This document shows, piece by piece, positions 7,743-40,383 of a DNA stretch of 64,000 bases (position 1 is the stretch's first letter; the number at the start of each line of letters is the position of its first letter). This stretch comes from Anaerolineales bacterium (lineage in GTDB: Bacteria > Chloroflexota > Anaerolineae > Anaerolineales > Villigracilaceae). A program made the position numbers and the translations under genes. The notes below the pieces were generated by a model. It saw only the letters and a program-made list of their open reading frames with translations. It was not told where the DNA came from and searched no databases. The DNA is taken from assembly GCA_013140605.1 (NCBI GenBank), contig JABFSL010000058.1:1-64000 (forward strand), given 5' to 3'.

Positions 7743-8197
7743 ACTTCAGGCTGGTCGGGCAGTTGCGGTTCTGCGTTGTCGGAATCGAGGAAAGTCCGCA
7801 CTCCATAGAGCACGGCGTCGGATAGCACCCGGGGCGGGGAAACCGCCGAGAGGCGTGAACCTGCCGGATAAGGGCCACAGAAACAAACAGCCCTTCCATC
7901 CTTTTGGGTGAAGTGGTGATGGTGAAAAGGTGGTGTAAGAGACCACCGGCATCTGCCGTAATGCAGATGGCCAGGTAACCCCCGCCGGGAGCAAGGCCAA
8001 GCAGGGGCGAAATCGTCTGTGGACGATGGGAGACTGCTCGTCTCCGCATGTGCCTTTCCCTTTTGTGGGAAAGGCCAGCCCCGGGTAGGTTGCATCGAGC
8101 AATGCGGCGACGCGTTGCCCAGAGAGATGACTGCACAGATGGACTGCCCTAAAGGGCGTCCATTGGACAGAATGCGGCTTATAGACCGGCCTGAAGT
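7743..8197 (+). ncRNA. rnpB: RNase P RNA (bacterial class A)
   Basis: The catalytic RNA that matures tRNA 5' ends. The terminal helix P1 pairs 7743-7756 with 8184-8197 (ACTTCAGGCTGGTC with GACCGGCCTGAAGT, one G-U). The conserved core GAGGAAAGTCCGCACTCC is at about 7786-7804. ACAGAAAC follows near 7870, and the 3' conserved GCGGCTTATAG is at about 8175-8184. At about 455 nt it is longer than the usual 350-400, because of extended peripheral helices (for example 8010-8075). A promoter lies directly upstream and a strong hairpin directly downstream. Open reading frames on both strands across it are shadows. Confidence 0.96.
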
Positions 8198-22792: not shown

Positions 22793-22849
22793 TACCACGG
22801 AGATTTTTTAAAGGTTTTCTCTGTAACCTCCGTGTGCTCCGTGGTTAAA
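22793..22849. repeat. degenerate palindromic spacer repeat (ACCACGGAG...CTCCGTGGT)
   Basis: Arms ACCACGGAG and CTCCGTGGT enclose CTCCGTGTG-like internal words and an A/T-rich centre. Same loose family as 28248, 38725 and others. Confidence 0.65.
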
Positions 22850-38685: not shown

Positions 38686-38724
38686 TTTAGGCTCAATGGG
38701 AGTTGGCGTGATTATTTTTTTTTA

Positions 38725-38801
38725 GTACACGGAATTCACGGAACACACGGAAAAGAGAAGGTTTTAAAGGTTTTTCCGTGCCGTCCGTGTTGTCCGTGTA
38801 C
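38725..38801. repeat. degenerate palindromic spacer repeat (GTACACGGA...TCCGTGTAC)
   Basis: Left arm GTACACGGAATTCACGGAAC with a third CACGGA behind it; right arm has CCGTGCCGTCCGTGTTGTCC. The CACGGA word recurs about every 10 nt in both arms. Confidence 0.75.
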
Positions 38802-38854
38802 AAAACCCCGTCAATTCCCAGAGAGCTATAATTTATTTTAGAACATCTGAGTGA

Positions 38855-38883
38855 TTGAAATTTTAATGTTTGCGTGCAATAAT
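38855..38883 (+). promoter_or_regulatory. promoter of the riboswitch transcript
   Basis: TTGAAA (38855-38860), 17-nt spacer, AATAAT (38878-38883). Transcription would start around 38890, a few bases before the first aptamer. Confidence 0.65.
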
Positions 38884-38898
38884 AAATTAGCTCCGAGA

Positions 38899-38978
38899 AA
38901 GAGCAAAACCGAGGAAACTCGGCGACGCAAAGTCATGGGTCTAACGCTGAACTGAGCCAGGACCGCCAGACTGCCGAC
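38899..38978 (+). ncRNA. cyclic di-GMP-I (GEMM) riboswitch aptamer 1
   Basis: Has the class-I core: GGCGACGCAAAGTCATGGGT with the GNRA-type GAAA-capped P1b stem before it, and the 3' half CAGGACCGCCAGACTGCCG. The C that pairs with ligand and the tetraloop-receptor features are recognisable. Confidence 0.88.
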
Positions 38979-38980
38979 AA

Positions 38981-39067
38981 AAGCAAAACCGCCAAAAGAC
39001 GGCGACGCAAAGCCAGAGCGTCTAAAACCAGCAAAAGTATCTGGTCAGGGCCGACCGGCTAACCGAA
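38981..39067 (+). ncRNA. cyclic di-GMP-I (GEMM) riboswitch aptamer 2
   Basis: GCAAAACCGCC, AAAGACGGCGACGCAAAGCC, then CAGGGCCGACCGGCTAACCG. The second stem is less standard (AGAGCGTCTAAAACCAG) and the 3' half diverges from the other two copies, so this aptamer may bind more weakly. Confidence 0.8.
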
Positions 39068-39068
39068 A

Positions 39069-39151
39069 GGCAAAATCAGGGAAACCTGATGACGCAAAGT
39101 CATGGATCTACAATCACTTTTATTGTGATCAGGATCGCCAGACTGCCGAAG
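39069..39151 (+). ncRNA. cyclic di-GMP-I (GEMM) riboswitch aptamer 3
   Basis: GGCAAAATCAGGGAAACCTG, ATGACGCAAAGTCATGGATC, then a TTTTAT-capped arm and CAGGATCGCCAGACTGCCG. The aptamer core is intact. It directly precedes a terminator hairpin, the probable expression platform. Confidence 0.88.
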
Positions 39152-39165
39152 AGCAAATCTTTTTT

Positions 39166-39205
39166 GCAGGGATGACCGAACGCTAGGTCATCCCTGCTTG
39201 ATTTA
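39166..39205 (+). terminator. terminator downstream of the triple riboswitch
   Basis: GCAGGGATGACC, loop GAACGCTA, GGTCATCCCTGC, tail TTGATTTAATTT. It starts 15 nt after aptamer 3. Confidence 0.75.
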
Positions 39206-39347: not shown

Positions 39348-39353
39348 TATAAT
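39348..39353 (+). promoter_or_regulatory. -10 box of ruvB, leaderless arrangement
   Basis: TATAAT followed by CGCCTTT (7 nt) and the ATG of ruvB; no Shine-Dalgarno. Same geometry as tgt at 23988. Confidence 0.6.
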
Positions 39354-39360
39354 CGCCTTT

Positions 39361-40383
39361 ATGACAAAATCTCCCCGCCCCCTTGACCCGGAAGCCAAGC
39401 CTGATGACCGCGTGGACAATGCTCTTCGTCCCGAAAAACTAACCGACTTGATCGGGCAGGATCAGGTCAAAGAGAATTTATCGATTCTGATCGATGCCGC
39501 GCGCAAACGCGGCGAAGCATTGGATCATGTTCTCTTTTATGGCCCTCCCGGTTTGGGAAAAACAACCCTCGCGCATGTGCTTGCCAATGAGATGGGAGTC
39601 AACGTCAAAGTAACGGCTGGACCAGTCATCGAACGCGCAGGTGATCTCGCCGCCATTTTGACAAACTTACGTGCTGGCGATGTCCTCTTCATTGATGAAG
39701 TCCATCGTTTGGGACGTGCCGTGGAAGAAGTGCTCTATCCCGCCATGGAAGATTTTGCGTTGGACATTGTCATCGGCAAGGGGCCGTCAGCCCGTTCCAT
39801 CCGCTTGAAACTTCCGCGCTTTACCATTGTTGGCGCGACAACGCGTTTGGCCTTGGTCACCGCTCCATTGCGCGCACGCTTTGGCGCAGTCTATCGCCTG
39901 GACTATTATGATCTGCCCGCCATGCAATCCATTGTCTCCCGTGCCGCGCGGATGTTGAAAGTGGAAGCCGAGACAGATGGCATCACAGAAATGGCACGCC
40001 GCGCCCGTGGGACTCCGCGTGTGGCGTTGCGCCTCCTGCGCCGTGTGCGTGACTTCGCCCAAGTCCGCGCGGATGGGGTTATCACGAAAAAGGTTGCCAA
40101 AGAAGCGCTGGACTTATTACAAGTTGACCCGCTCGGACTCGATGACGTGGATCGCCGCGTGTTAAAGACCATCATCGAAAAATACAATGGCGGACCCGTC
40201 GGTCTGAACACCATCGCCGCATCCATCAGCGAAGAACAGGACACCATCATGGATGTGGTCGAGCCGTACCTTTTACAACTTGGCTTCCTTGACCGCACCC
40301 CACAGGGCCGCGTCGCAACCAAATCCGCGTATGAACATTTGGGGTTCATCTATACGGAGCAGGGTCAGCAGAGACTTTTATAG
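39361..40383 (+). CDS. ruvB: Holliday junction branch-migration ATPase RuvB
   Basis: 340 aa, an AAA+ motor that drives branch migration with RuvA. Walker [16 protein letters not shown], Walker [12 protein letters not shown], sensor 1 [19 protein letters not shown], arginine finger in the last phrase, and the C-terminal winged helix ([33 protein letters not shown]). ATG at 39361 gives the normal length. ruvA and ruvC are not in the window. It is followed by DUF2905, a frequent ruvB neighbour. Confidence 0.97.

Follow-up and report, generated by a model that had tools for sequence, protein, structure and literature searches.

The stretch analysed here, called the window throughout, comprises 64,000 nucleotides (nt) from an Anaerolineales bacterium of the family Villigracilaceae (GenBank assembly GCA_013140605.1, contig JABFSL010000058.1, positions 1 to 64,000), and our subject is an array of three aptamers of the cyclic di-guanosine monophosphate I (c-di-GMP-I) class upstream of ruvB. 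The original prediction, made from the letters of the window, had placed three adjacent c-di-GMP-I aptamers at 38899-39205, behind one promoter and in front of one terminator. The check that it proposed, scoring with the c-di-GMP-I covariance model (Rfam RF01051, gathering cut-off 35 bits), puts every copy above the cut-off, and the flanking signals are recovered as a sigma-70-like promoter and a terminator-like hairpin. The extent was right for the array, with the start shifted to about 38890, because a leader GCUC at 38890-38893 pairs with GAGC at 39151-39154. The features of the unit are as follows.

38841-38858, plus strand: conserved upstream box, GAACATCTGAGTGATTGA, overlapping the -35 element; mostly invariant in an alignment of 9 units
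38855-38883, plus strand: sigma-70-like promoter, TTGAAA-17-AATAAT with an extended -10 TG; 10 of 12 matches, conserved in the 9 aligned units
38890-38895, plus strand: 5' strand of the putative closing helix P0, GCUC + CG; from leader/tail complementarity across units
38892-38978, plus strand: aptamer 1; RF01051, 70.6 bits; position 20 is A (38902)
38972-39066, plus strand: aptamer 2, diverged; RF01051, 43.3 bits; position 20 is A (38982)
39059-39150, plus strand: aptamer 3; RF01051, 75.7 bits; position 20 is G (39069)
39147-39154, plus strand: 3' strand of the putative P0, CG-AA-GAGC; from leader/tail complementarity across units
39166-39197, plus strand: 3' hairpin, a probable uncoupled intrinsic terminator; 12 pairs and a moderate U tract

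There are no spacers in this array, the 3' CCGA of each aptamer doubling as the 5' CCGA of the next, and the fold of the window's unit has a z-score of -5.43. A cmscan of the whole window reports only the outer two aptamers and omits one overlapping lower-scoring match; the middle copy recovers its score when scanned alone. The same two-aptamer output was obtained for 12 of 13 triple-bearing loci. Two of the dropped middle matches were lost through overlap, and the remainder fell below the cut-off or were otherwise lost. Because Rfam scans can thus list the outer two aptamers alone, existing counts of doublets may include further triples. A version of the middle copy lacking its 3' end and C92 was rejected, the alignment giving it a normal GRC-U-N-CCGA end with 1 or 2 extra bases in some units.

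The unit is widespread among relatives. With a covariance model of the middle aptamer (R1), searched over 152 genomes of the family, and with the sequences then read, 62 three-aptamer units were collected from three families of the order, a count that leaves out the truncated unit of genome G027 and the enlarged one of G164. In the genus, g1, 41 of 57 genomes have the unit (one, G017, truncated at the leader), and beyond it the unit was read in 18 genomes of nine other genera of the family, in two of family f14 (G266 and G311) and in one of family f9 (G313). Matches to c-di-GMP-I as such were found in 51 of the 57 genomes of the genus, and the paired matches among those listed are of two kinds: true triples like that of the window, and at least 21 doubles, mostly in the order aptamer, terminator, aptamer. 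Among the matches listed, a genome usually has no second R1 match as strong as its best. Mean identity is 74.2% for the aptamer unit and 59.8% for its promoter region, versus 34.4% further upstream (26 units). Comparison of the sequences thus supports the architecture of the unit and its conservation and, as set out below, its closing helix; it likewise supports the view that neither a linked gene nor a coupled terminator goes with it.

Two further searches used a pattern for adjacent aptamers, which misses units with a changed core. Among 400 genomes spread evenly across the phylum, 17 matched, the real arrays all in family f1 and the rest judged by eye to be chance; among 400 genomes of the order, 45 matched, and this search also pointed to G313 and G164. 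The middle-aptamer pattern was found in 29 named stretches, of which 28 are labelled as Chloroflexi or its subgroups (15 Anaerolineales) and 1 as Synergistales. The last is a 3.7-kb contig (L196, JAFGMB010000164.1) that is perhaps mis-binned Anaerolineales. Two relatives of the array in other families, L276 (G164) and L275 (G313), have large insertions within a P3 arm, and in G164 the third aptamer continues into further structured-looking sequence.

Covariation was assessed on an alignment (A3) of 55 of the 62 units; the other seven (G040, G058, G127, G130, G266, G311 and G313) were read separately, and the start of G123 in A3 was shifted by 86 bases, the model having matched its first aptamer (our list of neighbouring genes keeps the uncorrected position). 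For the three-aptamer structure on A3, 95.0% of cells pair, versus 16-39% for slid versions, and two-sided changes occur in 46 of 73 pairs, versus 25.5 +/- 2.4 in shuffles, none of 500 being as high. Because four rows of A3 are out of register at P0, this helix was judged from the complementarity of leader and tail rather than from alignment columns. Leader and tail are complementary in all 54 units in which the leader is present (that of G017 being truncated there), as GCUC/GAGC in 48, GCAC(UU)/(AA)GUGC in 4, ACUCG/CGAGU in 1 and GCUC/GAGU with a G-U pair in 1, by eye. Seven cross-pairings between these types gave 3-5 pairs each and never restored the full native helix. Family f14 has its own compensated version, GGUGCAUCC/GGAUGCAUU, as does G313, GCACUC/GAGUGC (by eye); in G108 and G040, where the best computed helix is a chance one, the pairing was taken from the letters. 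These exchanges support a helix between the outermost nucleotides at either end, which would close the whole array. Pairing of the two inner CCGA motifs with each other is neither supported nor refuted, because the motifs hardly vary and their helix is almost invariant in A3. Some pairs of the middle copy fail to hold, an A-C at P2 being unpaired in 38 of 55 units and a C-A in 27 of 55. Two folds were rejected as proof of structure: RNAalifold mispairs the middle copy in its pairing within that aptamer, and the single-sequence fold of the window's unit mispairs it as well.

A promoter scan found 1 promoter versus 0.8 expected in shuffles, a count near chance, and therefore only conservation is counted here as promoter evidence. 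The upstream box is the sole exact match in the genome to GAACANNTGNNNGATTGA. In some other genera it is GAACAnnTGttg-like, and it resembles half of a GAACAGGCGTTC box near the start of the genome's lexA. At the other end, a hairpin of -16 to -27 kcal/mol follows the array in 55 of 55 triple units.

Whether that hairpin is coupled to the aptamers was assessed by complementarity between hairpin and aptamer strand, and the doubles of the same genus provide the comparison. In the 21 doubles among the matches listed, the 5' arm of the first terminator is complementary to the 3' strand of the aptamer (median -17.7 kcal/mol, z -2.1); in the 55 triples the median is -7.0 kcal/mol with a z of 0.04, which is no complementarity. 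At the median of the 55 triple units, then, this measure finds no terminator coupled to an aptamer. A value close to that of the triples (z 0.35) was also obtained for the second aptamers of the doubles, and so what the test excludes is an antiterminator and not a translational platform. The doubles, for example G000:C91:1807-2064 (L040) and 20 others in the genus among the matches listed, generally have a coupled terminator with the first aptamer, and the second appears, by eye, to carry a translational platform masking the ribosome site; such a locus would be a bi-mechanism c-di-GMP pair.

Beyond the hairpin lie two features that we judge to stand outside the unit.

39348-39353, plus strand: TATAAT, a separate leaderless ruvB promoter; seen in 31 of 31 units
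39361-40383, plus strand: ruvB, the neighbouring gene; Pfam RuvB_N, AAA_lid_4, RuvB_C

The suggestion that ruvB has its own leaderless promoter holds generally, TATAAT standing 4-11 nt before the ATG in every unit with a located ruvB-type start. The spacer from hairpin to ruvB has a mean identity of 21.8% (24 adjacent units), and the start of ruvB has 70.3% (26 units). A 27-codon frame, which had been named as the following gene, sits in this spacer; since the spacer is not conserved, at 21.8% versus 74.2% for the unit, we rejected the frame as a target and do not take it for a gene. The original prediction had also remarked that the usual targets are missing, and this is so: no usual target is found downstream. 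Synteny in relatives, which it proposed as a check for the gene that normally follows, yields no conserved one. In at least 36 of 55 units ruvB lies downstream (33 from a neighbour list built on mechanical frames, which missed it in G108 and G055 and missed a distant one in G150, and those 3 from a search for ruvB starts, which itself missed several on the list). MBOAT is the next gene in seven units, and in 8 (G114, G126, G123, G129, G054, G043, G130 and G127) the next gene is convergent. G311 has YqeY downstream; G266 has thiamin pyrophosphokinase, which possesses its own thiamin pyrophosphate (TPP) riboswitch. This riboswitch lies at L227 3627-3738, about 180 nt behind the triple array. Upstream genes vary as well, among them an FtsX-type permease with an HlyD protein, IMP dehydrogenase and a histidine kinase. 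Thus, among the units compared, a conserved downstream target gene was not found. The other four c-di-GMP-I loci of the genome lie directly in front of protein genes, and the products of these begin, by eye, with signal-peptide-like sequences. The missing target is explained if, as it appears, the locus is a free-standing RNA gene and not a leader.

What the array binds has to be read from its pockets, whose bases we number as we take the residue numbering to run (A47, C92). Of the 55 units, 55, 54 and 55 have A47 in copies 1, 2 and 3, respectively, and 51, 53 and 54 have C92; for the window's middle copy this reading presumes one inserted base, Rfam's own alignment placing an A there. Position 20 we take to be the contact to the ligand base that separates c-di-GMP aptamers from those for cyclic GMP-AMP (cGAMP, or c-AMP-GMP), and A20 to be the common pocket change of the latter. 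Copy 1 has A in 46 of 55 units and G in 9; copy 2 has A in 51, G in 3 and C in 1; copy 3 has G in 42, C in 10, A in 2 and one gap; the most frequent set, in 36 of 55, is A-A-G. This is also the set of the window, where the A20 feature of GEMM-Ib (c-AMP-GMP) aptamers is found in copies 1 and 2 and the c-di-GMP-type G in copy 3 alone. Among the matches listed, 42 aptamers of double riboswitches have A in 8, G in 26 and C in 8. The C20 variant thus occurs both in these doubles (G000:C91 included) and in third aptamers of triples. As to a source of cGAMP, at what we take to be the Hypr position of the GGDEF domain the Hypr-type serine is absent among the 14 readable of 18 GGDEF matches in the genome (13 Asp, 1 Asn), and a search for SMODS nucleotidyltransferases gave 0 hits in the genome, which is 96.2% complete. 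In the literature, one pocket change is described as common in c-AMP-GMP aptamers (PMC9481103), and a G20A aptamer is named together with cGAMP (PMC6274999).

The reading that we prefer, at about even probability and on comparative sequence evidence, is that the window has here a noncoding RNA gene standing on its own, which buffers or stores c-di-GMP, rather than a leader acting in cis. Its own promoter would make an RNA of about 310 nt consisting of the three spacerless c-di-GMP-I aptamers, P0 would close the array, and the uncoupled hairpin would terminate the transcript. There would be no action in cis on the next gene; the RNA itself would act, offering c-di-GMP as many as three binding sites whose preference is graded (A20 in two, G20 in one) and in this way buffering or storing the signal, as proposed for the Bdellovibrio merRNA. 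Transcription and its level, ligand binding, the sink function and the RNA itself as the output are what we infer from the arrangement. More tentatively, and with a probability well short of even, the units may form a class of jointly closed three-site RNAs that sequester c-di-GMP (perhaps cGAMP at the A20 sites) and set its free concentration, perhaps cooperatively, given that CCGA strands and a single closing helix are common to the aptamers. Several observations weigh against the preferred reading. A sink would need many copies of the RNA per cell. No unit, complete or truncated, was found in 15 of the 57 genomes of the genus, several of these assemblies being incomplete. The U tract behind the hairpin is moderate (median 5 T in 9), so that some read-through is possible, and in family f14 there is, by eye, no hairpin directly behind P0. 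Two of the 55 triples do show hairpin-aptamer complementarity (G104, z -2.8; G047, z -2.4). Finally, the next gene is usually co-directional and most often ruvB, which is what a cis role would also predict.

That cis role is the one implied when the array was first described as a steep or multi-input switch on the downstream gene. A triple riboswitch would control termination at 39166-39197 and hence expression of ruvB or whichever gene follows; the co-directional gene lies within about 300 nt in many units, the hairpin could terminate transcription, and G104 and G047 have the complementarity that such a device would use. Against these stand the median of nil across the 55 units, the leaderless promoter and unconserved spacer of ruvB, and the units where the next gene is convergent or has its own TPP riboswitch. 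With the hairpin uncoupled by complementarity and the downstream gene unconserved, the switch finds no support, and we regard it as the least probable of the explanations considered. Hardly less improbable is a two-ligand integrator, in which aptamers 1 and 2 (A20) would sense cGAMP and aptamer 3 (G20) c-di-GMP. The excess of A20 in the first two copies over the third, its scarcity in the doubles and the published pairing of the G20A aptamer with cGAMP (PMC6274999) all speak for it; the Hypr and SMODS searches above do not, and A20 aptamers may still bind c-di-GMP. Because a cGAMP source was not found in the genome, we consider graded sites for c-di-GMP likelier than a device with two ligands.

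A ligand-gated small RNA acting in trans is unlikely, though less so than either of these. Here c-di-GMP would refold the array and so expose or hide a segment for mRNAs or a protein. A gene that stands alone and has a promoter and hairpin of its own suits such an RNA, and in g1 the short apical loop of aptamer 1, GCUGAACUGAGC, hardly varies, whereas its counterparts in aptamers 2 and 3 do, by eye; yet the conserved loop is lost, by eye, in several other genera though the array persists. The loop (A3 columns 83-106) is a possible contact or pairing site in its own right. In our ranking, a reservoir or buffer would take the largest share and the trans-acting RNA the second, with smaller shares for the two-ligand device and the cis switch.

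Triples had been called rare, and so they are, but they were already known: a published survey counts 12 c-di-GMP-I triplets and 347 doublets (PMC9481103), and one triplet, Bc3-5 of Bacillus thuringiensis, has been studied before cspABCDE (PMC4759541). Bc3-5 likewise has three c-di-GMP-I aptamers in series, but as three complete riboswitches in the 5' untranslated region of cspABCDE (PMC4759541), whereas the array of the window has no spacers, no platform between its aptamers, none detected after them, one common P0 and no target gene. According to a 2025 survey, c-di-GMP riboswitches that lie contiguously are usually complete ones (PMC12452182), and Table 1 of PMC9481103 places c-di-GMP-I under multiple expression platforms. 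The glycine, guanidine-II and NAD+-I systems, like the window array, have adjacent aptamers without platforms between them; unlike it, they have one platform and a gene acted on (PMC9481103). The doubles of the same genus (e.g., G000:C91) share the aptamer family and the genomes and differ by the terminator between their aptamers, which generally pairs with the strand of the first. Copies 1 and 2 share A20, which we take to be a mark of the group, with the Geobacter GEMM-Ib, or c-AMP-GMP, riboswitches. The latter precede cytochrome, pilus and polysaccharide genes (PMC6456294, PMC6274999), and the genome of the window has no Hypr GGDEF signature among the 14 readable matches.

The nearest parallel to the proposed reservoir is merRNA, a massively expressed c-di-GMP riboswitch RNA that is stand-alone, noncoding and without a conserved downstream frame, for which a role as reservoir or sponge was proposed; its authors state that this role is not yet validated (PMC3627812). 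The likeness is one of description, merRNA being described with a c-di-GMP riboswitch and not a triple. Moreover, beyond the Bdellovibrio lineage its authors saw no conservation of it, and its expression was measured (PMC3627812), whereas the window array is known from sequence alone. In the open-licence PubMed Central literature, to the extent that its text was available, no description was found of a spacerless, jointly closed, target-free c-di-GMP-I triple, nor any paper combining Anaerolineae, c-di-GMP and riboswitch; relative to the known triples and merRNA, the spacerless, jointly closed, platform-free triple thus appears to be new. Riboswitch aptamers are nearly always gene leaders, and a conserved target-free triple would turn the merRNA reservoir proposal into a comparative, testable class; on the more tentative reading of the units as sequestering RNAs, this would be an RNA class dedicated to a second messenger. 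The A-A-G pattern at position 20 would allow mixed affinities or mixed ligands within a single RNA to be tested cleanly.

Two further features of the window can be recorded. At 38722-38804, separating the HlyD gene from the promoter of the RNA, CACGGA units make up an inverted repeat that is imperfect and about 80 nt long, and a unit similar to it occurs near 22829. The window also holds a bacterial class A RNase P RNA at 7747-8197 (229.4 bits).
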